Position numbers and translations under genes: made by a program. Shown here piece after piece: positions 3,131 to 18,436 of a DNA stretch of 20,226 nt; the first letter of the stretch is position 1; the number at the start of each line of letters is the position of its first letter. Source of the stretch: a virus; IMG/VR virus record IMGVR_UViG_3300032046_000272, positions 1-20,226 of that record; one strand, written 5' to 3'. The notes under the pieces were generated by a model, which made no database searches, was not told where the DNA came from, and was given only the letters and a program-made list of their open reading frames with translations.

Positions 3131-3195
3131 GTGATTGATGGGATATAGCGAACGCGGCGGCATCCTGGTACCGGATACCTGGGCGGAGCGAGGCC

Positions 3196-3203
3196 AGGAG
3201 GTG
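3196..3203 (+). promoter_or_regulatory. Strong ribosome site that decides the portal start
   Basis: AGGAGGTG at 3196-3203 is a near-perfect Shine-Dalgarno sequence six bases before ATG 3210. The upstream candidate starts (TTG 3135, ATG 3138) have no comparable site. The same spacing occurs before the protease gene at 5683. Confidence 0.7.
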
Positions 3204-3209
3204 GGCGCC

Positions 3210-4844
3210 ATGCTGGCCAATGTCCAACTGCTCACGGAGCGGCTGGCGGAGCTAGAGTTGGCACTCGAAGACCAGGGCTGGATGCGCCTATCCCAGGAAG
3301 GGCAGCGCGAGTTCAGCCGCGCTGCCCTGCGCAAGATCACGCAACTGGCCCGACTATTCTACCTAAAGAACCCGCTAATCCGCAGGGGCGTCAACGTCCA
3401 GGCCAACTACGTCTTCGGCCAGGGTGTCGAGATTCGCAGCGATAACGAGGACGTCAATACCATCCTCCAGTCCTGGCAGGATGATGCGAAAAACCAGGCT
3501 GAGTTAACCACCCAGCAGGCGCATCTCCAGACAGAGGTCGAGCTGCAAGTGATGGCCAACCTCTTCTTCGTGTTCTTCGTGGATGCGAGGAAGCGTGGCC
3601 GGGTGCGTGTGCGCACTATCCCCTTTGATCAGGTAGAGGACGTGATCGCCGACCCTGAGGATGCGAAGACGCCCTGGTTCTACAAGCGCGTCTGGACGGA
3701 GGCGCGGCTCGATCCGGCACTGGGGCAGATCATGGGCGCCAACCGCACCGAATACTACCCGGACTGGCGCTACCGCCCGGCACAACAACCGGCGACTATC
3801 GGCGACAGCCCGGTACGCTGGGAGAGCCCGGTCTACCACATCAAGGTCGGTGGCCTGTCGGACATGCGATTCGGCGTCTCCGAGGTGTATGCGGCGCTGG
3901 ACTGGGCCAAAGCCTACACGCAATTCCTGGAGAACTGGGCGACCATCGTGCGCTCCTATGCGAGTTTCGCCTGGCAACTGACTACCAAGGCCGGCAAGGC
4001 GGGCGTGGCAGCGGCGAAGACGAAGTTGGGCAGCACTTATGGCACCGGCTTGTCCGGTGGTGAGACCAACCCGCCGCCGATACCCGGCTCCACGTTCATC
4101 GGCGCCGACAGCGTCAACATGCAGCCCATTCGTACCGCCGGCGCCACCACATCGGCAGAGGATGGCCGCCGCCTGCTGCTGATGGTGGCCTCGACGATGG
4201 GATTGCCTGAGACATTCTTCGGCGATACCTCGGTAGGCACGCTGGCGACGGCAAAGAGCCTGGACAGGCCGACCGAGCTCCAGATGCGCCAACGGCAGAT
4301 GCTCTGGCAGGACATCCTCGGCAACATTGCCCGCTACGTCGTCGAGCAGGCAGTGCGAGCCGGAACACTGGCCGGCACGGTGGTAGAGGAAGACGATGGC
4401 ACGCCGATTGTCACTCTGCCAACCAATGATGAGACGGGCGAGCCGGCATCGCTAGACATTCACGTCACGTTCCCGCCGATCCTGGAGCGCGACATCACGG
4501 AGAGCGTCGCGGCAATTGTGGATGCGGCGACTCTGGGCGGCCAGGGGCTCGCCGGGACGCTGGATCTGGAGATGGTGACGCGGATGCTCCTCGGGGCCCT
4601 GGGCGAGCAGAACGCCGACGAGCTGCTGGCCAAACTGTTCCCGCCGCCGGCAGAGGGTGAGGAAGAGGTGCCAATGTGGAAACGGGAGGAGTTGGCGCCA
4701 CCGCCGCCGCCCGCGCCGGTGCTCGTGCCGGCCGTCGGTCAGCCGGGGCAGGGCGCTGAGGTGGAGGAAGATCAACTACAGCAGGAATCCTTCGGTGAGG
4801 CGCTGCGCGAGTTCCGCGATGCGGTGAGGGGGATCAGTGGATAG
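3210..4844 (+). CDS. Portal protein
   Basis: The dodecameric portal forms the DNA channel at one capsid vertex and binds terminase and neck proteins. I choose ATG 3210 (544 residues) because of the AGGAGGTG site; ATG 3138 in frame would add 24 residues. Recognisable blocks: an N-terminal helix, then LFYLKNPLIRRGVNVQANYVFG (about 49-70), a wing region with IPFDQVEDVIADPED, SPVYHIKVGG, and the C-terminal helical part with STMGLPETFFGD and KSLDRPTELQMRQRQ that is characteristic of HK97/SPP1-type portals. The tail after residue about 490 is Pro- and Glu-rich and probably flexible. It sits between terL and the MuF gene, and its stop overlaps the MuF start. Confidence 0.93.
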   Translation: MLANVQLLTERLAELELALEDQGWMRLSQEGQREFSRAALRKITQLARLFYLKNPLIRRGVNVQANYVFGQGVEIRSDNEDVNTILQSWQDDAKNQAELTTQQAHLQTEVELQVMANLFFVFFVDARKRGRVRVRTIPFDQVEDVIADPEDAKTPWFYKRVWTEARLDPALGQIMGANRTEYYPDWRYRPAQQPATIGDSPVRWESPVYHIKVGGLSDMRFGVSEVYAALDWAKAYTQFLENWATIVRSYASFAWQLTTKAGKAGVAAAKTKLGSTYGTGLSGGETNPPPIPGSTFIGADSVNMQPIRTAGATTSAEDGRRLLLMVASTMGLPETFFGDTSVGTLATAKSLDRPTELQMRQRQMLWQDILGNIARYVVEQAVRAGTLAGTVVEEDDGTPIVTLPTNDETGEPASLDIHVTFPPILERDITESVAAIVDAATLGGQGLAGTLDLEMVTRMLLGALGEQNADELLAKLFPPPAEGEEEVPMWKREELAPPPPPAPVLVPAVGQPGQGAEVEEDQLQQESFGEALREFRDAVRGISG

Positions 4845-5682: not shown

Positions 5683-7239
5683 ATGCTACTCAGTGAAGCG
5701 GTAACGATCCGACATCAGGCGCGCAGTTTGCTGCGCTCTGCCAAGGACTTACTGGCCAACAAGACGCTCTCTCAGGCGTTGCGCGACCAATTGGACGGCC
5801 TAGAAGGCGCGCTCAAGCGCACTTGGGGCGACTTGGAGGCAGAGGCGGCGGATGCTGAGGTCATGCCCGCGGCAGAGGCAGCGGTGGCAGTGGCCTTGAC
5901 TGAGATGATCAAACACGAGGGCGACAAGTGGGTGCTGTACTCGAAGGATGGCTCAAAGAAACTGGGCGAGTTCGACAGCGAGGAAGCGGCCAAGAAGCGG
6001 GAGCGGGAGATTCAGTTCTTCAAGCACCAGAATGAGGCCATGATCGACCAGGCAGCCATAGCGGTGCCCCTACTTGAGAAGGGCAATATCGAGGGCTTGA
6101 TTGCCGGTTTCGGCGATTGGGCGAAGGGCAGCCAGGCCGAATGCGCGAAGGCACTTGAGGGCAAGGACGGCATCAGTGATGCCAACGCTCTCTGCGCCTG
6201 GCTCAAGGACCAGGCGACCGGCACAACGATGTGGCGTGGCAAACAAGGGGAAGCCACCGGCGACATCGAGATCATCGGCGACGTGATTCCCCTGGTTGAG
6301 GCAGGCAAGGCGCTACGCGCGGACGGCACGATCCGGGCCAGGATTCTCGCGCCGGGTTGGGGCTCCAGCGGCTACTACAGCGCGGCCATGCTCCAGCGCG
6401 ACGGCCCCAAAGTGTTCACCAGGGGCTTGAAGTCGTACTGGGATCATCCGACGGTGAAGGAGGAAGTGGAACGGCCGGAGCGCAGCTTGCGCGACCTGGC
6501 GGGCGAACTGACGACGGATGCCGCCTGGGATGCCAACGGCCCGGCAGGCCCTGGCCTGTACAGCGACGTCAAAGTCTTCAAACCTTACCAGGAGACCGTC
6601 GCGGAGTTGGCACCGCACATCGGTATGAGCATTCGGGCGGATGGTAAGCCGCGCCTGGGGGAGGCCGAAGGCCGCAAGGGCATTCTCATCGAGCAGATCC
6701 TGAGAGGGAAGTCCTTGGACTTCGTTACCCAGGCTGGCGCGGGCGGGCAGATTCTTACCCTATTCGAGGCGGCACGAGGCCGTGCGGCTGTATGGCAGCC
6801 GCAGGAGGAAACAGTGACCGAGGAAGAGGCAAAGGTTCTCAGGGAGAGCAACGCGGCACTAGCAGCGGAGGTCAAACGCCTCCAGGAAGCGGCCATGCAA
6901 CGAGAGGCGCACGACCTGGTAGCCGAGGCGGTGGGCAAGAGTGACCTCCCGGCACCCGCTAAGGTGCGGATTCAGGAAGTGCTCGCGGGCACGGTGCCGC
7001 TGAAAGAGGGGGCGCTCGACAAAGAGGCCCTGACGGCGACCGTGGGCACGGCGGTCGAGGCGGAGCGCAAGTACATCGCCGCGCTGGTGCCCGCCGCCGG
7101 CAAGATCATCGGCATGGGGGGCAGTGTCTCGGCGAGCGAGGGCACGGCGCTCAAGGAATCCTTCCTGCGGCTCTACAAGGCCCAGGGCATGAATGAGGCG
7201 GAATCCGAGAAGTTGGCGAACGCCGCGGCTGGGCGCTAA
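5683..7239 (+). CDS. Capsid maturation protease / scaffold fusion
   Basis: A 518-residue multidomain protein at ATG 5683, preceded by GGAGGT six bases upstream. Residues 80-115 (GDKWVLYSKDGSKKLGEF, then a charged helix) form a small module seen in phage head proteins. Residues 145-186 carry a Cys/Trp block ending NALCAWLKDQ and MWRG. The protease core is about 200-360: SYWDHPT with His255, RPERSLRDLAGEL, HIGMSIRADG with Ser316, and LIEQIL with Glu337; order and spacing fit the His-Ser-Glu triad of S78-like prohead proteases. The rest (370-518) is helical with a coiled coil (379-410), as in scaffold domains. It would scaffold the prohead and then cleave capsid and itself. Triad assignment is inferred from spacing. 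Confidence 0.82.
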   Translation: MLLSEAVTIRHQARSLLRSAKDLLANKTLSQALRDQLDGLEGALKRTWGDLEAEAADAEVMPAAEAAVAVALTEMIKHEGDKWVLYSKDGSKKLGEFDSEEAAKKREREIQFFKHQNEAMIDQAAIAVPLLEKGNIEGLIAGFGDWAKGSQAECAKALEGKDGISDANALCAWLKDQATGTTMWRGKQGEATGDIEIIGDVIPLVEAGKALRADGTIRARILAPGWGSSGYYSAAMLQRDGPKVFTRGLKSYWDHPTVKEEVERPERSLRDLAGELTTDAAWDANGPAGPGLYSDVKVFKPYQETVAELAPHIGMSIRADGKPRLGEAEGRKGILIEQILRGKSLDFVTQAGAGGQILTLFEAARGRAAVWQPQEETVTEEEAKVLRESNAALAAEVKRLQEAAMQREAHDLVAEAVGKSDLPAPAKVRIQEVLAGTVPLKEGALDKEALTATVGTAVEAERKYIAALVPAAGKIIGMGGSVSASEGTALKESFLRLYKAQGMNEAESEKLANAAAGR

Positions 7240-7274
7240 GAGCGTCGGGCCGGAGGGCGGAAAAGGAGAACGAA

Positions 7275-8348
7275 ATGCCTGTTAGATATGTCGCCACGGG
7301 GCGCACGGCGGGAACGGAGATCTCGAGCACCTATGAGGGGCGACACGTGACCCTCGAGGAGTCGTACCTGATTCACCCCTACCACGCGGACGCGTTGGTG
7401 GACAAAGGCGATCCTGTCCTATTCGCGGTCGGCAGTGGTTGGATGAATGGTGTTGGTGTGGCACTCAAGAGCGCGGCGGCCGCCACCGATCTGATCGCGA
7501 TCGACACCGAGGGTATCTGGTACCTGGACGTGACTGGGTGCATCTCGGATGGCTCAATAGACGGGCAAGCGCGGGCCTTGCATGCTGGCGACCCTGTCTA
7601 CATTCGGAAGGCCGGTGGCACCGTGGGTGATCCCGACATACTGAGCGGTGAGGATGATGCCCATAATACCGTGCCATTCGGCTACCTGTTGGGTGACGTG
7701 ACCGCGCATGTATCGACACATACGCTGGTCGCCGTCAAGGTTCACTGGGCTCCGAACTTCCTGGAGTCTATCAACGTTGGCTCCTACAGCACGCCGGCGG
7801 GACCTATCGTGATCGATAACCACGAGATCGACATCTCGGCGACAGCGAGGGCTGCTGCCGAGGCTGGGGAATCGTGGGGCATAGAGTATGCCTGGCTGAA
7901 AGCATACATCGGTCTTTCTGCTCCCCTCCATGCCGACGAGGACATGCACGGCATCTACATCCGGCTGGAGGACGACAAGCACGCGACGGGCGGCGACTTG
8001 TTCGCTGGCCGGTTCCAGACCCATGCCAACCACGCGGCGGCAGTCTGGACACGGCTCTACGGTCTGTACGTCGCCATCTCCAACGAAGTGTCCGGTACTA
8101 TCGCGGAGTCGATTGGCATTGCCATCGCGATGGGTGGAGCTGGTTGTGCTCCAACAATGCAGACAGCACTCCAGATCATGGGTGACGGAACGCTGAGTGC
8201 GGCCCGTCAGAGTTGGTTCCAGACTGAGATTGGCCGTGGTGCCGGCCTGAAGGCGGACACGAGCGCAATGGACGCGAACCTAACCCATAAGATTCCTATC
8301 GACATCGATGGCACGATCTACGCCATCCCTGTTTGCCAGTGGGCCTAG
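7275..8348 (+). CDS. Two-part capsid decoration-like protein
   Basis: A 357-residue protein at ATG 7275 with AAGGAGAA upstream. The N-terminal 155 residues are beta-rich and have features of DUF2190-like capsid cement proteins: GDPVLFAV, a GVGVAL strand, IDTEGIWYLDV, and GDPVYIRK. The C-terminal 200 residues form a second, Gly/Ala-rich beta domain (EIDISATARAAAE, GIYIRLEDD, IAIAMGGAGCAPT, ending in DIDGTIYAIPV) that I cannot place; it may be a surface knob or jelly-roll-like domain. Position between the protease and the capsid gene fits a capsid-decorating protein. The N-terminal assignment is moderate, the C-terminal one open. Confidence 0.65.
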   Translation: MPVRYVATGRTAGTEISSTYEGRHVTLEESYLIHPYHADALVDKGDPVLFAVGSGWMNGVGVALKSAAAATDLIAIDTEGIWYLDVTGCISDGSIDGQARALHAGDPVYIRKAGGTVGDPDILSGEDDAHNTVPFGYLLGDVTAHVSTHTLVAVKVHWAPNFLESINVGSYSTPAGPIVIDNHEIDISATARAAAEAGESWGIEYAWLKAYIGLSAPLHADEDMHGIYIRLEDDKHATGGDLFAGRFQTHANHAAAVWTRLYGLYVAISNEVSGTIAESIGIAIAMGGAGCAPTMQTALQIMGDGTLSAARQSWFQTEIGRGAGLKADTSAMDANLTHKIPIDIDGTIYAIPVCQWA

Positions 8349-8588: not shown

Positions 8589-9713
8589 ATGGCCGAGTTT
8601 CTGAGCCTCATGGAGAAATGGGACGGTTATGTTCCGGTGCGCAACGCGGGCCTCAACGAGAGCGCCGTGGCCCGGTTCATCGACCTGATGGCCAACGCCG
8701 AGCACATGCCGGCCCATCGCCAGGACTATCTGCTGAGGGAAGTGGTCACGACCAGTGACTTCCCCTCGCTCTTCGGGTTCACGCTCGAGCGTGACTTGCT
8801 GGCGCGCTATCGCGCCGTGGTCCCGGATTGGCAGGCGTATTGCGCTAGAGGCACTCTCCCGAACTTCAATCAGGCCGAGCTCCACAAGGTACAGGGAAAC
8901 GATACCTTGCTCCCCGAGGTGAGCGAGAAGGGCGAGTACCTGGTGGCGCAGATGGTGGATGCTCATTACCACCGCCAGGTGAAGAAGTTTGGGCGGCAGT
9001 TCGACATCTCCTGGGAGAGCATCATCAATGATGCCCTTAGCGCCTTCAGCGACCTACCGCAGCGGTTCGCGGACGCGGTCGTCTACACGCGCGCCTACAA
9101 CGCGACGGGGTTGTTCGCGGTCGCCGCCGGGCCAAACCCCTTACTCTTCGGGGCCGGTGCCACAATCACCGACGTGGATGGCCAGGTCATTACCAATAAG
9201 GGCGTTCTTGATCTGACCATCGGCAACCTCCAGATCACGCTGGATCTCATGGCCAGCCAGACCGACGTGAACGGCCGGCCCCTGGGCATCCGCGGCACGC
9301 ACCTGGTTGTCCCGAACCTCCTAGAGTTGACAGGACGGGCCATTCTGACGAGTACTCTGATCCTTTCGACGGCGGCGGCACCCATCCCCAATGCCAATGT
9401 GCTGTCGCAGATGGGCTTGCAGCTCCACGTGAATCCGCTGCTACCGGTGATCGACACAAGTGGCAACCGCAATGGTACCTGGTACGTGTTTGCCGATCCC
9501 AGCCAGGGCAAGGCGATCCAGATGGACTTCCTGCGGGGCAACGAGGACCCGGAGATCTGTATGAAGGCCAGCGACAAGGTGACGGTCGGCGGCGGCAGTC
9601 TCAGTCCGTTCAGCGGCGACTTCGCCACGGACAACATTTTCTATCGCGTGCGCGACGTGCACGGGGGCACCCAACTCGATCCTCGCTACGTCTACGCTCA
9701 GGTGCACACGTAG
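8589..9713 (+). CDS. Major capsid protein
   Basis: The 374-residue shell protein starts at ATG 8589 straight after the preceding stop, with GAAGGAGAG upstream. Position after protease and decoration genes, length, and sequence character (N-terminal helix FIDLMANAEHMPA, FPSLFGFTLERDL, KKFGRQFDISWESIINDAL, the segment RGTHLVVPNLLELTGRAIL, C-terminal DNIFYRVRDVHGGTQLDP) fit Mu gpT-like and related HK97-fold capsid proteins. The block around residues 120-150 resembles the E-loop/spine-helix region where subunits first bind. A large GC hairpin follows the gene at once. Copy number in the virion should be the highest of all products here. Confidence 0.92.
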   Translation: MAEFLSLMEKWDGYVPVRNAGLNESAVARFIDLMANAEHMPAHRQDYLLREVVTTSDFPSLFGFTLERDLLARYRAVVPDWQAYCARGTLPNFNQAELHKVQGNDTLLPEVSEKGEYLVAQMVDAHYHRQVKKFGRQFDISWESIINDALSAFSDLPQRFADAVVYTRAYNATGLFAVAAGPNPLLFGAGATITDVDGQVITNKGVLDLTIGNLQITLDLMASQTDVNGRPLGIRGTHLVVPNLLELTGRAILTSTLILSTAAAPIPNANVLSQMGLQLHVNPLLPVIDTSGNRNGTWYVFADPSQGKAIQMDFLRGNEDPEICMKASDKVTVGGGSLSPFSGDFATDNIFYRVRDVHGGTQLDPRYVYAQVHT

Positions 9714-9738
9714 ACTAGAGACGTGAGAGCACACAGGA

Positions 9739-9774
9739 CCGCCGCCGGCGCCAGCATTGCCGGGCCGGCGGCGG
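9739..9774 (+). promoter_or_regulatory. 11-bp GC-rich hairpin after the capsid gene
   Basis: CCGCCGCCGGC (9739-9749) pairs perfectly with GCCGGCGGCGG (9764-9774) around a 14-nt loop, in the 83-base gap between capsid and connector genes. No T-run follows, so it is not a standard intrinsic terminator. It could be a partial terminator, an RNA-processing site or a 3' stabiliser for the capsid message. Confidence 0.75.
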
Positions 9775-9796
9775 TGAGTGGCGCGAGAGGTAAGAG

Positions 9797-10183
9797 ATGG
9801 CTTTTACCTACAATCTGAGCACCGACATCGGCAAGATGCGCCTGCTGATCCCGGACCGCAGCGCCAGCGCCTACTTCTTCGAGGACGCTGAGTTGACGGC
9901 GATGCTTTCCGCCGAGGGCGACAACGTCAAACGGGGCACGGCCCTGGCCCTGGAGACGATGGCCAGCAACGAGGCTTACGTCCAGAAGGTGATCCGCCTC
10001 CTGGATCTGAGCACCAACGGGCCGGCGGTGGCAGCGTCACTGATGGCCCGAGCAGCGCAGTTGCGCGAGCAGGCGGACACGGAAGAGGGTGCCGCGGGCG
10101 GCGACTTCGACTGGGCAGAGCAGACGCTGACGAGTTTCGCCGAACGCGATATCCGCTACAACGAGTGGCTACGCGATGGGTAA
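9797..10183 (+). CDS. Head-tail connector (gp6-like)
   Basis: A 128-residue protein at ATG 9797 with GAGAGGTAAGAG upstream. It starts with a short DIGKMRLLIPD segment, then FEDAELTAMLSAEGDNVKRGTALALETMASN, the helix-rich pattern of HK97 gp6/SPP1 gp15 connectors that add a ring beneath the portal. The C-terminal half is helical and acidic (LMARAAQLREQADTEEG). Position right after the capsid gene and before a beta-rich closure protein is the standard place. The next gene overlaps it by eight bases. Family assignment rests on pattern and position. Confidence 0.8.
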   Translation: MAFTYNLSTDIGKMRLLIPDRSASAYFFEDAELTAMLSAEGDNVKRGTALALETMASNEAYVQKVIRLLDLSTNGPAVAASLMARAAQLREQADTEEGAAGGDFDWAEQTLTSFAERDIRYNEWLRDG

Positions 10184-10541
10184 TCTCGGACTGGTGCATC
10201 CGGCGCTGCTGAGTAGCCTGCCCGATCACTTCCACGACACATGCACCGTGCAGGAGGCAACGGAGACGCGCGGTAGCAATGGCGCGGTGCTGTCGGCCTG
10301 GGGCAACCTGGCGGCACATGTGAACCTGGTCTGCATCGTGGCGCCCGTGAGCGCCCACGAGCAGCACCGTGCGAAGGATACGATTACGATCGGGACGCAC
10401 AAGGCCATGTTGGCCGGCTACTACCCGGCGATCACGGAAAAGATGCAGTTGGTGGCCGGCGGCGCGACCTACGACATCGTCGGCGTCTGGCATGACAGTC
10501 TGGCGAAGGCGACGCATCTAGACCTGCAGGTGATCCGGTGA
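10176..10541 (+). CDS. Head closure protein (SPP1 gp16 / HK97 gp7-type)
   Basis: A 121-residue protein whose ATG 10176 overlaps the connector gene. The predicted beta-rich body contains TCTVQEATETRGSNGAVLSAWGN (about 23-45), then HRAKDTITIGTHKAMLAG and TYDIVGVWHDSLAKATHLDLQVI. This strand order with a terminal L-x-L-x-V strand is typical of small beta-barrel head-closure (stopper) proteins, which plug the DNA channel after packaging. The next gene starts inside its stop (GTGA). A precise family name cannot be given from reading alone. Confidence 0.75.
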   Translation: MGNLGLVHPALLSSLPDHFHDTCTVQEATETRGSNGAVLSAWGNLAAHVNLVCIVAPVSAHEQHRAKDTITIGTHKAMLAGYYPAITEKMQLVAGGATYDIVGVWHDSLAKATHLDLQVIR

Positions 10542-11209
10542 GCGGCCCAGTAGTCAGTCTGACGATCACAAACGTCGGTGAGATCATGGGCCAACTCAAC
10601 CGACTGACCGAGGCGACGCGGGGTGCTCAGTTGATGCGCGCCGCCACGGCGGGAGCTCTGATTCCAATGAACGCCGCTAAACGGAGGGCCCCCTGGCGCA
10701 CCGGAACGCTGCGACGCTCGATTCACATCGGCGGGCACACCGAAATGGCGAGTGATTTCAGCCCTGGGGAGGTGGGGCCGGATGGCAAGCCAGCCTATTC
10801 GGACATAGGCAGTCCAGCGCCAGAACCCACGAGAGTGGAGTTACTCATCGGCACCAATCTCGTCTATGCCGGCATCCAGGAATTCGGCGGCGTGGTGAGT
10901 CCGAAGACGGCGAAACTGTTGGCTATTCCCGTGGATGCCGCGGCGCGCACGGCTGGCAGTCCCAGGGGACAAGACCTCGTCTTTGTCAAAACTCAGGGCG
11001 GGCAGATGTTCCTAATGGACAAAGAGGGCAAGATTCGCTACAGTCTGCGGCGGTCGGTCACCATCCCGGCTCATCCCTACCTGCGCCCGGCGTTCGATGA
11101 GAATACTGAAGCGATCGAGCGGGAGATCGGCATCGTACTGCGCGAGGGCATCGAGGACGCATTGGCGGGTCGGGCCGGCTCTGGCATAGCGGCAGGCGGT
11201 GGCGAGTGA
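10538..11209 (+). CDS. HK97 gp10-like neck / tail-completion protein
   Basis: A 223-residue protein starting at GTG 10538, overlapping the previous stop. The fold signature is clear: N-terminal helices with AAKRRAPWRTGTLRRSI (about 46-62), then VYAGIQEFGGVVSPKTAKLLAIPV (108-131), FMLD-type strand near 156, and SVTIPAHPYLRPAFDE (177-192). The long insert after the EFGG loop is like that of Mu gpG/virion-morphogenesis relatives. These proteins complete the neck and join head to tail. The C-terminus ends in a Gly-rich tail (GSGIAAGGGE). The following methyltransferase GTG overlaps its stop. Confidence 0.87.
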   Translation: MSGPVVSLTITNVGEIMGQLNRLTEATRGAQLMRAATAGALIPMNAAKRRAPWRTGTLRRSIHIGGHTEMASDFSPGEVGPDGKPAYSDIGSPAPEPTRVELLIGTNLVYAGIQEFGGVVSPKTAKLLAIPVDAAARTAGSPRGQDLVFVKTQGGQMFLMDKEGKIRYSLRRSVTIPAHPYLRPAFDENTEAIEREIGIVLREGIEDALAGRAGSGIAAGGGE

Positions 11210-12234
11210 AACTCGCTGAGGTAATGCGGACGCGCGAGTCACTGCTGGGCTGGACGCAATCCGGCGTGAGTTGGCACAGCCTCTACCATGACTGGTCAGG
11301 GCGGCTGAATCGCACCGACTGCCGCTTCTGCTGCCGGGGGCCGCATCGCTGCTGCCAACCGGGCCAGACGCTCCTGCTGGTGCCTGGCGAGGGTGACTTC
11401 CTGCGCAGCCGTGGGGTGGCTGCCCAGGGCGATACCTATGTCTGTCTTGGCCGGGAGCATTGCCTGGATGCCCTGCGGCCAGTCTGCTGTCGGACGTATC
11501 CACTAGCACCAGACGCGGACGGCAACCTCTTTGCCGACACCGCTTGCTCGCAGCATCGATGGGCCTCCTGGCACTTTCTCTGCCAGACGGCCAAAGCCTG
11601 GCAGCACTTGCTCACCTATCCGCTGGTCCGACTGTGGCTGATAGGCATGCGGCATGGGCAGTACAATCAGCGGGCAGAGGTGGCGGTGGACGCGATCGAG
11701 CGACCCTTCGACGCTGGGTACACTGCAACCTTCGGCCACTACCATAGCGGCCGGCGCGTGGGGGAGTTGCTGCAGGCGGGCATCATCCGCTCGACCGACC
11801 GGCTACTGGTAACCGGGTGTGGGCGCGGGCAGTCTGTAGCGGCGGTGCGCGAGGAGGGCGTGGACGCCTGGGGCGTGGACGTCAACCCGTCCGTGGTCGC
11901 GGCGAGCGCTGCCCGTGGCTACGTTAGCCAGGGGGACGTGCGGGCTCTGGCTTTCGAGGATGGCTCATTCGACATGGTGCTCTCGGTGGACGTACTCGAA
12001 CACTTACCGGATTACCATCTGGCGCTGGCTGAGATGGCGCGCGTCTCTCGCTGGCGGGCCTACGTCGAGGTAACGGCGCTCGAATCTGCCGAGGACCTCT
12101 TCGAGGACCCGACGCACGTCGTCTTTCTGGGGCTGGAGGAGTGGCGGCGGGCAATTGAGGAGCACATGGCGGTCGAGAGCCTGGCGGAAGTGAGCGGCGA
12201 CAAGCAGGGCATGGTCTGTCGGGTGAGGCAATGA
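11206..12234 (+). CDS. YkgJ-like Cys cluster fused to SAM methyltransferase
   Basis: A 342-residue fusion at GTG 11206. Residues 36-126 are Cys-rich: Cys39, 42, 43, 49, 50 (DCRFCCRGPHRCC), then Cys80, 86, 94, 95 in YVCLGREHCLDALRPVCCRTYPL and Cys114. The CxxCC cluster and the RPxxCRxYPL block match the layout of YkgJ-type metal-binding domains (Zn or Fe-S). Residues about 195-340 are a class I SAM methyltransferase: motif I LLVTGCGRGQSV (200-211), the acidic ribose-binding Asp225 in GVDVN, and GDVRALAFEDGSFDMVLSVDVLEHLPD (243-269), typical of the Methyltransf_11 type. It lies between the gp10-like neck gene and the tail terminator, where no enzyme is needed for assembly, so it is an accessory gene. 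Substrate unknown. Confidence 0.85.
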   Translation: MKLAEVMRTRESLLGWTQSGVSWHSLYHDWSGRLNRTDCRFCCRGPHRCCQPGQTLLLVPGEGDFLRSRGVAAQGDTYVCLGREHCLDALRPVCCRTYPLAPDADGNLFADTACSQHRWASWHFLCQTAKAWQHLLTYPLVRLWLIGMRHGQYNQRAEVAVDAIERPFDAGYTATFGHYHSGRRVGELLQAGIIRSTDRLLVTGCGRGQSVAAVREEGVDAWGVDVNPSVVAASAARGYVSQGDVRALAFEDGSFDMVLSVDVLEHLPDYHLALAEMARVSRWRAYVEVTALESAEDLFEDPTHVVFLGLEEWRRAIEEHMAVESLAEVSGDKQGMVCRVRQ

Positions 12235-12617
12235 CCCTCGACGATGCCCAGTACGCCTACCTGAGCAGCGGGGTCGTCGCTCTGATCGGCACGCGGTTCT
12301 ACCCGGACAGGCTGCCAGAGGAGCCGACGCTGCCGGCGGTCACGTACCAGCAGGTGAGCACGCTACGGCTATCGCAACACACGGGAGCCGTAGCGGGCGG
12401 CCAGGTGCGGATGCAGTACACGGTATTCGCCCTGACACGCGCATCGGCGCGGGCGATCGCGGCGCAGCTCGTGGCCGCCCTCGACAGCTACAAGGGGACG
12501 ATGGGCGGCGTTGGTGGCCTGGCGGTGACGGTGCTCGAGATCGCCAACGAGATCGACCAGCACGACCCGGAGACGGACAGGTACCAGACGATGCTAGACG
12601 CAATCCTGGCCTACTGA
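12231..12617 (+). CDS. Tail terminator / completion protein (DUF3168-like)
   Basis: A 128-residue protein at ATG 12231 overlapping the methyltransferase stop (ATGA). It has the strand-helix pattern of lambda gpU/DUF3168 tail completion proteins: VVALIGTRFYPDRLPEEPTLPAVTYQQVS (14-42), RMQYTVFALTRASARAIAAQLVAALDSYKG (60-89), and a final acidic part with DPETDRYQTMLDAIL. Such proteins cap the growing tail tube and set its attachment face to the neck. The methyltransferase has been inserted between it and the gp10-like gene. Confidence 0.83.
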   Translation: MTLDDAQYAYLSSGVVALIGTRFYPDRLPEEPTLPAVTYQQVSTLRLSQHTGAVAGGQVRMQYTVFALTRASARAIAAQLVAALDSYKGTMGGVGGLAVTVLEIANEIDQHDPETDRYQTMLDAILAY

Positions 12618-12618
12618 T

Positions 12619-12801
12619 ATGCGGGTTGACGAGAGGGGCTACATCAAGTGCGGCGACTGCCATCAGCCATACGCCCGTGTGCATGATGGGGTGCTCGTGA
12701 TCGAGAGTCGCCACGGCGGGGTTAAGCATACGAACTCGATTCGGCTGGAGGATGTGGTACAATTGCTGCAAGAACGAGAGCGCCAGAAGGAGTGCGCCTG
12801 A
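12619..12801 (+). CDS. 60-aa Com-like zinc-finger protein
   Basis: ATG 12619 follows the tail-terminator stop by one base. The product has a CxxC pair (Cys11, Cys14 in IKCGDC) and His32/His37 in ESRHGGVKH, a plausible one-zinc site, followed by a helical end (IRLEDVVQLLQERERQKECA). It resembles small phage zinc fingers such as Mu Com, which is a translational regulator, but the match is only in outline. The last seven residues are encoded by the first copy of a 22-nt repeat that also supplies the ribosome site of the next gene. Confidence 0.6.
   Translation: MRVDERGYIKCGDCHQPYARVHDGVLVIESRHGGVKHTNSIRLEDVVQLLQERERQKECA
12777..12798 (+). repeat. 22-nt direct repeat, copy 1
   Basis: A perfect 22-nt sequence (ends AAGGAGTGCGCC) shared with 12941-12962. 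It encodes the C-terminal residues ERQKECA of the upstream gene and holds AAGGAG (12787-12792) eight bases before the next ATG at 12801. Confidence 0.95.
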
Positions 12802-12968
12802 TGACCAGTCGGAGCAATGAGTACCAGAATCCGTTTATCTGGCGCGGGTTGGTATGCCTGCTGCTAGATCGTGATACAGCCGTGGATGATGTTGAGACGC
12901 TCGACTATGAGGAATTGCGGGCCGAAATCTTGGCCCTGAAAGAGCGCCAGAAGGAGTGCGCCGAATGA
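12801..12968 (+). CDS. 55-aa hypothetical protein
   Basis: ATG 12801 overlaps the stop of the zinc-finger gene (TGATGA), with AAGGAG eight bases upstream; the frame ends at TGA 12966-12968. The 55-residue product has a hydrophobic, Trp-containing start (NPFIWRGLVCLLLDRD, residues 10-25) and an acidic helical end (DYEELRAEILALKERQKECAE). No family is recognised. It shares its C-terminal ERQKECA sequence with the preceding gene because both end in the same 22-nt repeat. Very short, but start, coupling and ribosome site are good. Confidence 0.55.
   Translation: MTSRSNEYQNPFIWRGLVCLLLDRDTAVDDVETLDYEELRAEILALKERQKECAE
12941..12962 (+). repeat. 22-nt direct repeat, copy 2
   Basis: Second perfect copy of the 22-nt unit, 164 bases downstream of copy 1. 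It again encodes ERQKECA at the end of a gene and again places AAGGAG (12951-12956) eight bases before an ATG (12965). Confidence 0.95.
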
Positions 12969-13225
12969 GTCGGATACTACGGTGCGACCAGTGCGGTCGG
13001 GAATGTCCCGAAGAGACGACAGACCGAGTCTGGTTGACTGTATCCTCTAGGCTGGAATTCGACTTCTGCGGTTTTGCGTGCCTTGCAAAGTGGGCCGCCA
13101 ATGTCGCGCGCACCGCGCTGATGCAGCACTATGATGAGCGGTGCGGGGAGAAACCGGAATCGGACCAGACAGAACGCTCGACTAATGCCGTATATGAAGC
13201 CAGCCATCCGGGGTCTACGAGCTAG
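12965..13225 (+). CDS. 86-aa Cys-rich zinc-ribbon protein
   Basis: ATG 12965 overlaps the preceding stop as ATGA, and AAGGAG lies eight bases upstream. The 86-residue product has Cys7, Cys10 and Cys14 (RCDQCGREC) and, after a beta-rich stretch, Cys35 and Cys39 in DFCGFACLAKW, a treble-clef or zinc-ribbon layout common in small phage proteins (CxxC ... FCxxxCLxxW). The tail after residue 60 is polar and probably disordered. Function is unknown; zinc binding is a good guess from the ligands. It is the last gene before an intrinsic terminator. Confidence 0.65.
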   Translation: MSRILRCDQCGRECPEETTDRVWLTVSSRLEFDFCGFACLAKWAANVARTALMQHYDERCGEKPESDQTERSTNAVYEASHPGSTS

Positions 13226-13289
13226 GCTAGCCTGATGTAGCGACCCAACCTAATAAGTACGCCTTGAGCGTCGAGATAGCGCCAAAAGT

Positions 13290-13315
13290 GCGCCGATCCC
13301 GGCGCTCTTTTCGTT
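13290..13315 (+). terminator. Intrinsic terminator inside the tail module
   Basis: GCGCCG (13290-13295) pairs with CGGCGC (13300-13305) around the loop ATCC, followed by TCTTTTCGTT. A competing pairing AGCGCC (13278-13283) with GGCGCT (13301-13306) is also possible. It is in the 115-base gap after the zinc-ribbon gene, the clearest intrinsic terminator in the window. The rest of this gap shows no convincing promoter. Confidence 0.7.
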
Positions 13316-13340
13316 CCCAGTCTGGCCCACGAGGAGGGAT

Positions 13341-13568
13341 ATGGTTCGTTTATCTGCCATGGTTGCGGATCTTCAGAAGGTCCTCACGGAGCATGGTGAT
13401 ATTGAGGTACAAGTGTGCGTGCCGATGAGGAAAGAGGGCCACTCTGCCGTGATATTGGATTTGGCTCCTACCGCTCCTCTCCTAGAAAGAAACAGTCTAA
13501 GCGATCCATTGGCACGTGTTATCGCTGTCGATCTAGTGACGACACCGTGGGAGAGGATGGCGGAATGA
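13341..13568 (+). CDS. 75-aa hypothetical phage protein
   Basis: ATG 13341 has GAGGAGGG immediately upstream. The 75-residue product begins with a helix (LSAMVADLQKVLTEHGD) followed by a strand with IEVQVCVPM and two more predicted strands (SAVILDLA, RVIAVDLVT). This layout (helix, then GDxxVxV strand) is that of a widespread family of small phage proteins of unknown function often described as having a Lxx-L-x(4)-D-x-x-V pattern. It is the first gene after the terminator and its stop overlaps the glycosyltransferase ATG, so the two are probably translated together. Confidence 0.55.
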   Translation: MVRLSAMVADLQKVLTEHGDIEVQVCVPMRKEGHSAVILDLAPTAPLLERNSLSDPLARVIAVDLVTTPWERMAE

Positions 13569-14764
13569 GAATCATGCTCGGCAGCAATCCCCCCTGGCTC
13601 AATAGCGGCTATGGCTCCCAGACACGGGGCCTGCTCACCGCCCTCCAGGGGTTGGGCCATGACGTCGCCTGCTTCGCCACCTACGGCCTCAAGGGGGGCA
13701 AGTTGGAGGTCGGCGGCGTGACGATGTACCCGCGGTGTCAGGACATGTGGGGCGCGGACGTGCTCGCCGGCCATCTGCGCGACTTCGAGGCCGATTTGTA
13801 TGTCACGCTCATGGACAATTGGGTGTTTCCGCCCGACTACCATGACAAGTTCGCCGTGCCCTGGCTCTCCTGGTTCCCGGTGGACACCGAGCCGGCGCGA
13901 CGGTCGGCGGCGCGTATGGCGACCAGGGCCGAGTATAACGCCACCTTCTCGCGCCACGGGGTGCGCATCATGGCGGAGGCGGGTGTGGCAGCCGAGTACC
14001 TGCCGCTTGGCGTGGACATCGAGACGTTCAACCCTGGCGATAGGGAGGCGTCACGGGATTATCTTCAGTTCCCGCATGATGCCTTTGTCGTTGCCATGGT
14101 AGCCGCCAACCAGAGTTACCCGGCACGTAAGGCTTTCCCGGAAAATCTGGAGGCGTTCGGTCGGTTCCAGAAGCGCCATCCTGAGGCGCTTCTCTATCTG
14201 CACACGGAGATGCAGCCGACCAACCCAAACAACACGTTGGACCTCGACGAACTGCTCGAGGCCCTGGATATATCGCTCGAGTGCGTCGTGCGGCCCAACC
14301 AGTACATGTACGTCACAGGAGCCTTCGGTGATGAGGATATGGCCCAGGTCTACCGGGCGGCGGACGTGCTCCTGGCGGCGAGCTCCAATGAGGGTTTCGG
14401 GCTCCCGATCGTGGAGGCGGAAGCGTGTGCCTGTCCGGTGATCGTGACCGACTTTGCCAGCATGCCGGAGACGGCGGCGGGCAACGGCATTCTCGTGCCG
14501 GCCAAGTGCCGCCAGTACACGCGCATGGGTGCCTGGGACGTGCTGCCGGACATTGATGGCATCGAGGCGGCCCTGGAGATGGCCTACGGTTGGAGCGACA
14601 GCGAGCGGGAGATGCGTGGCGATCAGGGTGTCGCCCACATCTGGCGGGAGTATTCGTGGGACGTGGTAACAGAGAGGTACTGGCAGCCACTGCTGGAACG
14701 GATCGAGCGCGACGTGACGTTGGCGAAACTGGAGACACGACAGGCCGCGGCAAGAACGCGGTAA
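13565..14764 (+). CDS. GT-B glycosyltransferase, GT4-like
   Basis: ATG 13565 overlaps the preceding stop (ATGA) and has GGAGAGG upstream; longer frames would run over the preceding gene. The 399-residue enzyme has the N-terminal Gly loop NSGYGSQTRGLL (13-24) of the acceptor domain and, in the C-terminal nucleotide-sugar domain, AAASS-like turn plus EGFGLPIVEAEACACPVI with the EX7E pair Glu276 and Glu284, and TDFASMPE after it. The link YLPLGVDIETFNP (145-157) is the usual hinge. It would transfer a sugar from an NDP-sugar to a glycan, protein or base. Location between neck and tail-tube genes marks it as accessory; virion protein or host surface glycosylation are the main options. Confidence 0.9.
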   Translation: MRIMLGSNPPWLNSGYGSQTRGLLTALQGLGHDVACFATYGLKGGKLEVGGVTMYPRCQDMWGADVLAGHLRDFEADLYVTLMDNWVFPPDYHDKFAVPWLSWFPVDTEPARRSAARMATRAEYNATFSRHGVRIMAEAGVAAEYLPLGVDIETFNPGDREASRDYLQFPHDAFVVAMVAANQSYPARKAFPENLEAFGRFQKRHPEALLYLHTEMQPTNPNNTLDLDELLEALDISLECVVRPNQYMYVTGAFGDEDMAQVYRAADVLLAASSNEGFGLPIVEAEACACPVIVTDFASMPETAAGNGILVPAKCRQYTRMGAWDVLPDIDGIEAALEMAYGWSDSEREMRGDQGVAHIWREYSWDVVTERYWQPLLERIERDVTLAKLETRQAAARTR

Positions 14765-14765
14765 G

Positions 14766-14789
14766 CGCGGACAGGGCACCTGTCTCGCG
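14766..14789 (+). other. Small hairpin before the tail tube gene
   Basis: GACAGG (14770-14775) pairs with CCTGTC (14779-14784) around loop GCA, and flanking CGCG on each side (14766-14769 / 14786-14789) extends the stem past a one-base bulge. It ends just before the GGGGGAGG ribosome site of the tail tube gene and has no T-run. Possibly an mRNA 5' structure for this abundant product. Confidence 0.5.
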
Positions 14790-14801
14790 GGGGAGGAACC
14801 A

Positions 14802-15233
14802 ATGGCAACCAAGGTTTGGGCGAAGGGGACGATCCTGCGTCTCAACGGGACCGCAATCGTCTCGGTGCGCGACATCAGGGGGCCGGCGCGCAGCCGGGCG
14901 ACAATCGACATGACCACTCACGACAGTAGCAACAACTACGACGAGTGGGTGGCGGCCCTGCGCAGCGGCGGTGACCTGACGGCCAATATTATCTACGACC
15001 CGACGACCGCCACGCACGGCACGCCGGCGAATGGGCTCAACTGGCAGTTCGACGATGCGGGCGGCACCCCGGGCAGTTGGGATCTCATTTTCCCGATAAC
15101 CGGGTCGCCGGGCTTCACGTTCAGCGGCGAGTTGACGCAGTTCGCGCCCTCGGCGCCGGTGAAGGACGCGTTGACTGCCGACATCACCATCAAGTTAACC
15201 GGCAAAGCAACGTACAGGGCCGCGATTACCTAA
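14802..15233 (+). CDS. Major tail (tube) protein
   Basis: A 143-residue beta-rich protein at ATG 14802, preceded by GGGGGAGG. The sequence follows the tail-tube pattern of lambda gpV-like proteins: short N-terminal strand, VRDIRGPARSRATIDMTTHDSSNNYDEWVAALRSGGDL (22-59), a loop with DPTTATHG, WDLIFPITGSPGFTFSGELTQF, and a final strand set ending ITIKLTGKATY. Hexameric rings of this protein stack to form the tube around the tape measure. Position before the G/GT chaperones confirms the call. No sheath gene is next to it, so the tail is likely non-contractile. Confidence 0.9.
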   Translation: MATKVWAKGTILRLNGTAIVSVRDIRGPARSRATIDMTTHDSSNNYDEWVAALRSGGDLTANIIYDPTTATHGTPANGLNWQFDDAGGTPGSWDLIFPITGSPGFTFSGELTQFAPSAPVKDALTADITIKLTGKATYRAAIT

Positions 15234-15282
15234 ATGGTGCTACTGATTGCGAGGCGTATGACAGCGAAAAAGGAGTAGCAGA

Positions 15283-15693
15283 GTGGCGAAGGTCTTGGGC
15301 CGCGAGGACATCCTCTCGGCCAGCGATAGGCAGACGGTCACCGTTCCCGTCCCGGAGTGGGGTGGCGACGTACTCGTGCGCGGTCTCACGGGCAAAGAGC
15401 GCGACAGGTTCGACGAGAGCCTGATGGAGGAGACCAAGGGCAGGGGCGGCCGGCGCGAGCGGCGGGTGCGCTGGAATAACGCCCGTGCCCGCCTCTGTGC
15501 CATGTGCATCGTGGACGAAACGGGGCGGCGCCTGTTCACCATGGAGGATGTACAGGCCCTCGGCGAGAAGGGAGCGGCAGCGGTACAACGCGTCTACGAC
15601 GTCGCGGCCAGCCTTTCCGGACTCTCTAGTGCTGACTTGGACGAGCTCCTGGGAAACTCAGACGGCCAGAGCGACGATTCGCCTTCCGCCTAG
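15283..15693 (+). CDS. Tail assembly chaperone G (lambda gpG-type)
   Basis: A 136-residue protein at GTG 15283 with AAGGAG seven bases upstream. It begins VTVPVPEWGGDVLVRGLTGKERD (18-41), then a basic helix, RARLCAMCIVDETGRRLFTMEDVQALGEKG (68-97) and an acidic end: the standard look of siphophage tail chaperones that coat the tape measure during tail assembly. It is the unshifted product; most ribosomes should end at TAG 15691-15693. The codons CTG GGA AAC (15649-15657) contain the slippery heptamer described separately. Confidence 0.88.
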   Translation: MAKVLGREDILSASDRQTVTVPVPEWGGDVLVRGLTGKERDRFDESLMEETKGRGGRRERRVRWNNARARLCAMCIVDETGRRLFTMEDVQALGEKGAAAVQRVYDVAASLSGLSSADLDELLGNSDGQSDDSPSA

Positions 15694-16007
15694 CTCTGGC
15701 GCTGGGTTACGTGGACGTGGACGGCATGTTGGCGAGCGTGCCATCCCGCCTGATCGCCGAATGGCAGGCTTACTACGCGCTCGAGCCATTCGGCGAGATG
15801 CGAGGAGATCTGCGCAATGCCATGCTCTGTTCGCTGGTCGCTAACAAACTGCGCGGCAAGGACGAACCGGCGTTCACGCTGGACGATTTCACGCCGCGCT
15901 TTGCCGACAGCGCCAAGAGACGCAAGCGCCGAGAGCGCCACCAGAGTCCCGAGGAGCAAATGGCGATCGTGATGGGTATGTTCGGCGGCAAGGGAAAGGG
16001 CGACTGA
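15283..16007 (+). CDS. Tail assembly chaperone GT, -1 frameshift product
   Basis: Slippage by -1 at 15651-15657 joins the first 125 residues of G (15283-15657) to a second frame (15657-16007), giving about 241 residues. The T part opens with LRRPERRFAFRLALALGYVD and VDGMLASVPSRLIAEWQAYYALEPFG, the conserved LALALG...EWxAY pattern of lambda T-like extensions. It has no good ribosome site or start of its own before GTG 15711, and its first 18 residues, already conserved-looking, lie before that GTG. It ends one base into the tape-measure ATG. In lambda, GT recruits the tape measure to the tube protein. The frameshift is inferred from signal and conserved layout, not shown. Confidence 0.88.
15651..15700 (+). 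promoter_or_regulatory. Programmed -1 ribosomal frameshift signal
   Basis: The heptamer GGGAAAC (15651-15657) is in the right register, G GGA AAC, to slip to GGG AAA. After a 7-nt spacer, GCCAGAGC (15665-15672) pairs perfectly with GCTCTGGC (15693-15700) around a 20-nt loop. The zero-frame stop (15691-15693) lies at the stem base. Confidence 0.87.
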
Positions 16008-18436
16008 TGTCTACCCTGATGGAACTGGCGGGAAAACTAAGCCTGGATAGCAGCGGCTGGGCAGCGGGCGTTCAGAAGGCCGTGAGCGACACGGAGCAAC
16101 TGGCGCGCGCCACCGACCAGATCACCGTTTCCTCCGAGGCCGTGGCCGGTGCCACCAGTTGGCAAGAACTCGAGGCAAAACTGCTGGCAGTGACCGATCA
16201 AGCGGGCCAGGCGGCGGTGGGTGCCGAGCAACTGGGCGAGGCGACGCAAGCGGGGGCGAGTGAAGGCGCCGCTGCTGTCGAGGGCCTAATCGAGGCCGAT
16301 ATTCAAGCGGCACGGGCGGCGGAAGCAGTTGGTACCGCAACGACTGAAGGCGCCACGAAAGGTGTTGAGGCAGTCGAAGGTCTGAAGAACCAGATCTCCG
16401 GCCTGAGCGATGCCCTCCAGAAGGTAATGACATTGGGTGGCGCGGCGCTCGCTTTCGAGGGCTTGAAGCGTACGGGCGAGCAATACCTCAGGTTTGGCGA
16501 AGCCGGTGCGCAATTGCTGAACCTGGGGCGCGGTTTTGAGGCCGCTGCTCAGCAGGCGGGCAGCTCAGGCGCTGCTATGTCGGCGGCCATCGAGGCCGTG
16601 GGGCGCAACATCGTTGACGACGACTTTGCCATGCGTGAGTTCATCCTGACCACCCGTATGGCAGGGGCCGAGATCGGGCAGCAATGGCCGGAGCTGATCA
16701 AGGTGGCGATGGCCTCGACAGCGCAGGGCATCGGCTCCGTACAGGATAACCTCTCCCTCATCGATCAGTATATCCGGACGGGCTTTGGTCGCGGACTCAA
16801 GATGCAAATGGGGCTGCCCGTCCCAGATGCCGCAGAGGTAATGGATGCCTACGGTGCCAGTCTGGGCAAGACGGCTGATCAATTGAGTCAGGCCGAGCAG
16901 GGACAGGCGCGTCTCAATGCGGTGCTGGCAGCCGGTGAGGCGCAGTTCGGCGACCTCGATAAGGCGAGCGCGCAACTGGCGGGGGGCGGGATCCCGCGCC
17001 TGCGGAACACGTTGGAGGATCTCACCGAGGAAGCGCAGATGGGGGCGGCGCCGGCGATTGACGCGCTGGCGGACTCGCTGAGTAACCTGGCGGGGGTCGG
17101 GATCCCGGCAGTCGCGGTGCTTTCGGATCTCTACGCTTGGCAACAGAAGATCGCGAGCGCGCCGATGCCGGAGGGGATGCCGGGCGGGGAGTTCTTCGGC
17201 GGCGCCCAGGGCATGCTCGACAAGCTGATGGCCGCCACGCCGATGGCAAGCGCCTTCCGCCTGCTCGGCGCTGCTAGTCGGGAGGCGGGGGAGGCGATCG
17301 GCGGTTGGTTGGCGCCAGCGGTAGAGCGACTCTTCGCGGATGTGACAACGCTGCCGGCACCGCTGGAATGGCTGGCCGGCATACTGGGTGTGACGGCTGG
17401 AGACGCGAGTGAGGCGGAGGACGCCGTCAAGGACTTGGGGGCCGCCATAGAGTCACTGCCCACCAGCACCGACCTCGCGATCAGGATGCACATTGTCACT
17501 ATCGGCGCAACCGGTCTCGTTCCTGGCCCGGCGATAGGGCCGGGCTACCACGGCCCGGCGGCGGGCGAGCTGGCCGATCAGCAGAGGCGGGCATCCGGCA
17601 TCTACACGCAACTCGAATACGAGCGAGTGGTGCAAGGTCAGATCCTCGACCTCCAGCAGGATACCGCCAGGCAGATTGCCGACATTGTGGCTGGCTATCC
17701 GGAACCAGTGCAGCGCGTTAATGAGACTCTGTATGACTACGCCACGCGGCTTGCCGATTGGCAGATCAGTGAGGCGCAGCGGGCGGCCAGCGGCTCTGCA
17801 GGCGCTTACAAAGATGCCAGCGACGCGCTCAGTTCCTACCTGACCGCCTACGAATCGGCACAGGAGGGGTTACTCCAGCCAACGATGGGGACGGATATCA
17901 CCGCGCTGGAAGACAGGCTGGGAATGCACGTCGAGACGTGGGATGAGAAGGCGAAGCGGGCGCTAGATGTGGTGAATCGAGGCGCAGAATCGCCCTGGGC
18001 AGCGCCGATGGAGCTGGAGTCACCGCAGGAGGCGCTCCAATACTATGAGGACTATTACGCCGGTGCCTTGCCGGCGGGTGAATACACAGAGGGCATGGGG
18101 GCGGCGGTCGAGCAGTTCCGCTCGAAGATGGAAGCGATGATCGGGCAGCAGAATCTACAAGGGATGTTCAGCGATGCCCTGGCCACCGCGGGACTGGGGC
18201 CAGAGAGCACGTTGGTTGCGGATGCGCTGGGGCCGCAGGGTGGGCCGGCGGCGGAAGCGTTCGCCACGGCGTTCGGGGCGCATGACTGGCCCAAACTGGG
18301 CACTGATACAGGCGCGGCATTCGTCGGCGGGTTTGGCGCCGCGTTAAAGACGCCCGGCACGGCGTTCACGACCACCGTGCGGAATGTCTGCGAGAGTATC
18401 TTCCAGGATTGGCTCAATAGGGATGGTATCCCGTGA
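16007..18436 (+). CDS. Tape measure protein
   Basis: An 809-residue protein at ATG 16007, overlapping the GT stop by one base (TGATG). The N-terminal third is long Ala/Gln/Glu-rich helix (KAVSDTEQLARATDQ and similar), followed by hydrophobic patches near residues 141-155 (MTLGGAALAFEGL) and 365-385 (LAGVGIPAVAVLSDLYAW), and a Gly/Pro-containing middle with a further helical C-terminus. Length, position after G/GT and Ala-rich helical composition are the marks of a tape measure, which sets tail length; at about 0.15 nm per residue it suggests a tail near 120 nm. No lysozyme or peptidase domain is visible. Confidence 0.92.
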   Translation: MSTLMELAGKLSLDSSGWAAGVQKAVSDTEQLARATDQITVSSEAVAGATSWQELEAKLLAVTDQAGQAAVGAEQLGEATQAGASEGAAAVEGLIEADIQAARAAEAVGTATTEGATKGVEAVEGLKNQISGLSDALQKVMTLGGAALAFEGLKRTGEQYLRFGEAGAQLLNLGRGFEAAAQQAGSSGAAMSAAIEAVGRNIVDDDFAMREFILTTRMAGAEIGQQWPELIKVAMASTAQGIGSVQDNLSLIDQYIRTGFGRGLKMQMGLPVPDAAEVMDAYGASLGKTADQLSQAEQGQARLNAVLAAGEAQFGDLDKASAQLAGGGIPRLRNTLEDLTEEAQMGAAPAIDALADSLSNLAGVGIPAVAVLSDLYAWQQKIASAPMPEGMPGGEFFGGAQGMLDKLMAATPMASAFRLLGAASREAGEAIGGWLAPAVERLFADVTTLPAPLEWLAGILGVTAGDASEAEDAVKDLGAAIESLPTSTDLAIRMHIVTIGATGLVPGPAIGPGYHGPAAGELADQQRRASGIYTQLEYERVVQGQILDLQQDTARQIADIVAGYPEPVQRVNETLYDYATRLADWQISEAQRAASGSAGAYKDASDALSSYLTAYESAQEGLLQPTMGTDITALEDRLGMHVETWDEKAKRALDVVNRGAESPWAAPMELESPQEALQYYEDYYAGALPAGEYTEGMGAAVEQFRSKMEAMIGQQNLQGMFSDALATAGLGPESTLVADALGPQGGPAAEAFATAFGAHDWPKLGTDTGAAFVGGFGAALKTPGTAFTTTVRNVCESIFQDWLNRDGIP

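Follow-up and report, generated by a model that had tools for sequence, protein, structure and literature searches.

The virus record IMGVR_UViG_3300032046_000272, analysed over its full length of 20,226 bases and called the window below, carries a siphophage head-tail module in which genes for a class I S-adenosylmethionine (SAM) methyltransferase and a GT4 glycosyltransferase (GT), together with four small genes (s1 to s4), stand between the gp10-like neck gene and the tail tube gene. We observed that this insert is real and that it consists of two insertions and not of one block, because the tail terminator gene sits inside the inserted genes. The first insertion, between gp10 and the tail terminator, is the methyltransferase with its Cys-rich region (11206-12234), and the second, between the tail terminator and the tail tube gene, comprises s1 to s3, a hairpin, s4 and the glycosyltransferase (12619-14764). 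Since relatives of the GT4 enzyme lie in the structural modules of phages and are in part fused to FkbM methyltransferases, we favour, tentatively, a role of the two enzymes in glycosylating the virion with a methylated sugar. The features of the region are as follows.

10538-11209, plus strand: gp10-like neck or tail-completion gene, left border (PF04883, 2.2e-7; phrog_5, 3.5e-15)
11206-12234, plus strand: class I SAM methyltransferase with a Cys-rich N-terminal region (Methyltransf_11, 3.9e-16)
12231-12617, plus strand: tail terminator, core gene between the two insertions (PF11367, 9.1e-13; phrog_347, 9.1e-10)
12619-12801, plus strand: small gene s1, 60 amino acids, one CxxC and histidines (weak zinc-type scores only)
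12777-12804, plus strand: first copy of a 28-base repeat at the s1/s2 junction, likely ribosome-binding site
12792-12968, plus strand: small gene s2, 58 amino acids, repeat copies on both sides (no family match in Pfam or PHROG)
12941-12968, plus strand: second copy of the 28-base repeat at the s2/s3 junction, 93% identical to the first
12965-13225, plus strand: small gene s3, 86 amino acids, treble-clef-like cysteines CDQCG ... CGFAC
13290-13305, plus strand: terminator-like hairpin, then TCTTTTCG (terminator scan; shuffle folding z -3.93)
13341-13568, plus strand: small orphan gene s4, 75 amino acids
13565-14764, plus strand: GT4 glycosyltransferase, 399 amino acids, best start ATG at 13565 (phrog_2170, 9.7e-30)
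14802-15233, plus strand: tail tube protein, right border (phrog_158, 2.9e-10)

The insertions were compared with relatives of the same capsid family. A scan with a capsid-protein alignment returned 349 relatives, 80 of which were kept; including earlier hits, 82 loci were analysed, many of them fragments. Both gp10 and the tail terminator were found in 55 of these loci (window included) and were adjacent in 54, the window being the sole locus in which they are split. In 34 of the 54 relatives with an adjacent pair, the two genes overlap by 4 bases. The window methyltransferase overlaps each of its neighbours by 4 bases as well and, as such overlaps are typical of the gp10/tail terminator pair, this suggests a seamless insertion with coupled translation. 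The gap from the tail terminator to the tail tube gene was 10-642 bases in 13 relatives, compared to 2184 bases in the window. The junction between the GT and tail tube genes is confirmed by the contig L002, whose GT is 99% identical, and the other junctions were seen in the window only. None of the 82 capsid-family relatives, many being fragments, contained any of the window's inserted genes (GT, methyltransferase, s1 to s4). An earlier sequence-only reading had placed inserted genes between the gp10-like neck gene and the tail tube gene, and this is confirmed: all the genes that it named are present, and the split is unique among the 55 loci. Its single insert at 11206-14764 is correct as to the genes but not as to their unity, and its proposal of one coherent cassette was not supported, since the tail terminator divides the inserted genes.

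The GT matches phrog_2170 over profile positions 3-366 of 374 and scores above the cut-off of Pfam PF13692. It is predicted to be a retaining-type GT4 enzyme of the GT-B class with an EX7E motif (E276, E284), and a script counted EX7E(A/S) in 51 of the 54 family members. An AlphaFold model built from 30 aligned relatives, leaving out L061 and L077 (in-frame stop), reached a mean predicted local distance difference test (pLDDT) score of 90.2. With this model, the best solved-structure match in Foldseek was MshA (5.1e-18), and the chlorovirus GT 3oy2, PimA and PimB' were also among the nearest; we take MshA and 3oy2 both to be GT-B enzymes. Viral structure matches included phage proteins of 936 and 787 amino acids, both named FkbM methyltransferase, which look like further GT4-methyltransferase fusions. 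A single-sequence viral scan with the GT found only the near-identical L002. A pattern scan confirmed 156 GT4 relatives in viral contigs (80 kept) versus 6 in the genomes of 84,980 species; the two scans used nearly the same degenerate patterns, on which this phage bias rests and by which it is limited. The phrog_2170 profile, filed under moron/host takeover, also matched all 14 control genomes and is therefore by itself no marker of a phage family.

To place the enzyme in its genomic setting, we analyzed the 54 GT4 loci that were non-redundant after removal of near-duplicates (window included). The usual order was portal, scaffold, capsid, small protein, GT4, GT2, epimerase and connector genes. 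The major capsid gene lay at most five genes upstream of GT4 in 33 of the 46 loci with at least three upstream genes, and a glycan-type cluster was found at most seven genes from GT4 in 27 of the 41 loci with at least three downstream genes (window excluded from both counts). Two different capsid families carry GT4. Of the 123 GT4-flanking proteins, 95 were scanned with Pfam; the 28 dropped comprised five tail genes of the window, minus-strand calls that are probably spurious, and open reading frames judged structural or remote. We observed 23 GT2, 11 epimerase, 8 radical SAM and 2 UDP-galactopyranose mutase matches and several methyltransferases. Three loci (L071, L077 and L092) have no glycan-type gene between GT4 and the connector genes, so GT4 is sometimes found with no partner genes beside it, a situation close to that in the window. 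The phrog_2170 GTs of Microcystis phage Mae-JY09 (38% identity over 96%) and Pontimonas phage phiPsal1 (34% identity over 94%) follow the capsid gene in the structural module, whereas the window GT lies between the tail terminator and the tail tube gene; in phiPsal1 a methyltransferase and a GT2 stand beside the GT, while the window GT has no adjacent GT2. Overall, these gene neighbourhoods support, at the family level, that GT4 belongs to phage structural modules, typically beside the major capsid gene. We found no report of this GT4 slot or of a GT4-FkbM fusion in phages in a literature search that was thin on subscription papers.

We then analyzed methyltransferases in 47 of the 54 GT4 representatives (leaving out the window, five genome loci and L005) and, as a control, in 47 of the 82 capsid-family loci, all without GT4. 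Three families were tested (FkbM, Methyltransf_11 and Methyltransf_24), and a gene was called near when it lay within about 5 kb, as judged by hand from the coordinates. FkbM was present in 10 of the 47 GT4 records and in none of the 47 control loci. Seven of the GT4 records contain a GT4-FkbM fusion, in two domain orders: FkbM is C-terminal to GT4 in six (L030, L031, L048, L050, L063 and L065) and N-terminal in L035, where GT4 occupies residues 290-682 of 683. In L063 the fusion (669 amino acids) is flanked by a gp10-like gene and the tail terminator and occupies the same slot as the window methyltransferase. As a separate gene, FkbM is near GT4 in L026, where its product shares 34-42% identity with the fused FkbM domains, and in L056, and it is distant in L033. 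A methyltransferase of at least one tested family was near GT4 in 19 of 47 records, compared to three of the 47 controls (Fisher p 1.6e-4). Among the 19, L078 scores under the cut-off of its family; among the controls, L178 narrowly misses the limit, its gene lying about 5.5 kb upstream of the capsid gene, and would otherwise make a fourth. Repeated coupling of the GT4 family to methyltransferases is thus supported at the family level.

Other genes recur in the same islands. Several islands contain radical SAM genes, which in some cases have a B12-binding or SPASM domain as well (L031:11094-12146, L051:9182-10429, L048:7432-8190 and others). In L048, the gene at 6731-7432, which adjoins both the GT4-FkbM fusion and the radical SAM gene, matches PF01973 (MptE-like, 3e-6, below the cut-off), a family akin to the Maf flagellin glycosyltransferases. 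Pfam also marked, in 3 of the 95 flanking proteins, an apparent catalytic domain of a class I tRNA synthetase (Glu/Gln type), and one gene cluster holds L025:2551-3252, L030:10891-11658 and L050:9605-10342, presumably the same three proteins.

The account that we propose rests on gene order, enzyme families, the predicted fold and motif of the GT, the placement of its family in structural modules, and methyltransferase fusion or proximity elsewhere. The insertions would add virion-decorating enzymes to the head-tail operon, the two enzyme genes having entered at separate points; an unrelated phage lineage is the probable source of the GT. The GT4 enzyme, probably made late together with the tail proteins, would take its sugar from a nucleotide-sugar of the host and attach it, with retention, to a virion protein, for which the tail tube and the capsid are the most likely candidates; the methyltransferase would then cap this sugar or, less likely, methylate protein. 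We lean slightly towards the first part taken alone, GT4 acting on a virion protein, and genome position favours the virion rather than the host surface as the target. That the methyltransferase finishes the sugar appears somewhat doubtful, and as a general account the two steps together come a little short of an even chance. The earlier suggestion of methylated sugars on tail or capsid protein is supported in part: the GT4 family does lie in structural modules and is coupled to methyltransferases, but the two particular enzymes of the window occur together in none of the other fetched loci.

Several observations weigh against this account. The window GT precedes the tail tube gene, while GT4 follows the capsid gene in most relatives, and s4 and the GT are set apart from s3 by a terminator-like hairpin, no sigma-70-like promoter having been found in between. 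The window methyltransferase is Methyltransf_11-like and not FkbM, so its tie to the GT4-FkbM coupling is one of analogy, and it has no close relative in any fetched locus. The majority of the GT4 records (28 of 47) have no tested methyltransferase near GT4. In addition, the GT4 and control sets are different phage lineages, the control being the capsid lineage of the window; the p-value is therefore not free of relatedness, and shared ancestry may inflate the association. Finally, lone methyltransferases without GT4 occupy neck or tail slots in three capsid-family relatives (L153, L165 and L170). The refuting condition set in the earlier note, independent distribution of the genes, accordingly gave a mixed result, with these lone methyltransferases and the 28 unpaired GT4 genes on one side and the fusions and the proximity in 19 records on the other.

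The nearest proven parallel to the system proposed for the window is that of the chlorovirus PBCV-1, in which the virus enzymes A064R (fused) and A061L (separate) make an O-methylated rhamnose on the capsid glycan, with proven activity (PMC9614988). Like A064R, several phage GT4 relatives fuse a GT with a methyltransferase; unlike in A064R, the two are separate genes in the window. In addition, domain 1 of A064R is a GT-A enzyme, its domain 2 represents a new GT family and the host is an alga (PMC9614988), whereas the window GT is of the GT-B type. In mycobacteriophages, glycans are described on capsid and tail tube subunits (Freeman et al. 2023, as cited in PMC12619734 and PMC10568470). The window GT gene directly precedes the tail tube gene.

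The strongest competing explanation is that the inserted genes are unrelated morons: the GT may decorate the virion, while the methyltransferase and the small genes came separately and have other jobs, e.g., protein or RNA methylation or regulation. The two insertion points with the tail terminator between them, and the lack of any other fetched locus with both enzymes, are in line with this explanation, as are the lone methyltransferases in structural slots of L153, L165 and L170. These last genes lie after the tail terminator or before gp10 (L165:3591-4145, L153:6628-7140 and L170:11119-12579). Moreover, inserts elsewhere in the capsid-family relatives mostly had no match, the others being HNH endonucleases and a few methyltransferases (48 of 107 inserts scanned, alternative tail genes of about 340-360 amino acids and near-duplicates being left out), and the small genes of the window are orphans. 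What counts against it is the recurrence of GT4-methyltransferase fusions in both domain orders and the presence of a methyltransferase near GT4 in 19 records compared to three controls (47 each). We regard this explanation as unlikely on balance, at something over one chance in four.

The four small genes by themselves are most likely unrelated passengers. Zinc-site-like cysteines were observed in s1 and s3 and not in s2 and s4, and the best scores of s3 (DUF7576, 0.004; VATC, 0.0076) were both below the Pfam cut-offs. No match at E<=1 was obtained for s1, s3 and s4 in 50,697 phage records, and no convincing match for s1 to s4 in the fetched loci. The sequence-only reading had counted the small zinc-site genes into the modification system, but the searches returned no relatives of these genes, and neither enzyme is accompanied by them elsewhere, so nothing ties them to it. 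The core 19-mer of the 28-base repeat has a chance expectation of 0.02 occurrences, and the repeat copies with likely ribosome-binding sites at the s1/s2 and s2/s3 junctions suggest that s2 arrived, or can leave, by recombination between them. Local guanine-cytosine content is 0.56 across the small genes compared to about 0.63 around them, as would be the case for recent passengers. The hairpin at 13290-13305 folds better than 199 of 200 shuffles; the terminator scan as a whole found 2 sites versus an average of 3.0 in shuffles.

In a further reading, already raised in the earlier note, the GT, with or without the methyltransferase, would alter the host surface late in infection and so block superinfection or the loss of progeny to debris. 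GT4 enzymes commonly make cell-surface glycans and glycolipids, and MshA, PimA and PimB' are among the structures nearest to the GT model. Nevertheless, the GT4 family is found in virion structural operons, mostly directly after the capsid gene. Seroconversion operons combine a GT with a flippase or membrane partner, and no such partner stands beside the window GT. Modification of the host surface appears improbable to us on these grounds. To the same low degree, we would credit an extension of the virion-decoration account, in which a GT4 and methyltransferase form a mobile module that moves among head-tail slots of siphophages that are not related, giving their capsid or tail a coat of O-methylated sugar; in this phage, a new metal-binding Cys domain of the methyltransferase would make the methylation of a glycan or protein at the tail dependent on iron-sulfur or zinc.

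The methyltransferase itself scored 59.9 bits with Methyltransf_11 (cut-off 21.2), the class I SAM domain spanning about residues 190-295. Its N-terminal region of about 165 residues contains 11 cysteines within about 90 residues, in the pattern CX2CCX5CC ... RPVCCRTYPL ... C. A single-sequence viral scan with the protein found no relatives, NCBIfam matches were all far below their cut-offs, and 6uv6, a D-glucose O-methyltransferase, was matched at 9.5e-6 among many generic matches. An AlphaFold model from the one sequence reached a pLDDT of only 36.6. PADLOC matched only the generic methyltransferase part (mad2, 1.3e-8), and a role in a defence system was not accepted. For the Cys-rich region, there was no match in Pfam or NCBIfam, and solved structures matched at E>=0.23 only. 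Searches of phages by tblastn gave chance matches, and 400 Chloroflexota genomes gave weak matches in 16, with internal stops at 13 of the 17 listed places, which were judged to be chance. A scan with a mixed YkgJ alignment found no relatives, and a DNA motif scan of viral contigs gave 2 matches, both outside any listed reading frame for a similar protein. The region is an orphan with probable metal binding, as suggested by its cysteines.

This cysteine pattern raises the reading of the enzyme as a virion-protein methylase with a FliB-like cluster that would methylate the tail tube or neck without involvement of the GT. CX2CCX5CC, RPVCCRTYPL and the later Cys resemble CxxCxxCC domains, and the pattern with its RPxxCRxYP-like string is similar, by eye only, to that of YkgJ/FliB (PF03692), with no profile-level similarity. 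FliB binds [4Fe-4S] via CX4CX3CC and methylates a lysine of flagellin, a surface filament protein (PMC8598068). Kinship with PF03692 was not supported: no match was obtained at E<=10. A profile made from 27 CxxCxxCC domains placed the region within the shuffle range (2764 of 2982 scored shuffles did no worse than the real sequence; with a profile from a subset, this held for 658 of 2955). A regular expression for the cysteines had no match among 3000 shuffles, but it was picked after seeing the sequence. Furthermore, the window Cys region is fused to a class I methyltransferase, unlike FliB, which its authors describe as being without a Rossmann or SET-type domain (PMC8598068). We hold this reading to be quite improbable. 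Glycosylation of phage DNA bases against restriction is the least probable of all and hardly to be expected: DNA hypermodification by GTs of viruses is known (Pyle 2024, as cited in PMC12619734), but the window has no base-modification gene among its annotated genes, and the family's neighbours are sugar-nucleotide and GT2 genes beside capsid genes.

Around the insertions, the head-tail module comprises terminase (start 1874), portal (3135-4844), a head morphogenesis gene (start 4837), protease (start 5683), major capsid (8589-9713) and two connector-position genes (starts 9797 and 10176, named from size and position). The tail tube gene is followed by a chaperone (start 15283) and the probable tape measure (16007-18436, named from size and position). 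No Rfam match and no tRNA were found in the window, and a megablast of positions 9500-16500 against 50,697 phage records gave no match. The best named relative of the portal is that of the archaeal Methanoculleus virus L4768/Blf4 (43.7% over 82%), the next being those of Glutamicibacter and Arthrobacter phages. In L002, tail tube and chaperone are 100% identical to those of the window and downstream genes 94-98%, while the gene at the tape-measure position (L002:1668-4088) is just 56% identical, an apparent swap of this gene alone between close relatives.

To our knowledge, most phage glycosyltransferases have no known target. A GT family that stands beside capsid or tail genes in several unrelated phage lineages, and is repeatedly fused to methyltransferases, leads to a testable prediction, namely a methylated sugar on the virion. 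Placement of GT4 in structural modules together with methyltransferase fusion provides a gene marker for finding such phages. If virion decoration is true, it would extend the capsid glycan logic of chloroviruses to tailed phages, with consequences for virion stability, adsorption and immune recognition.

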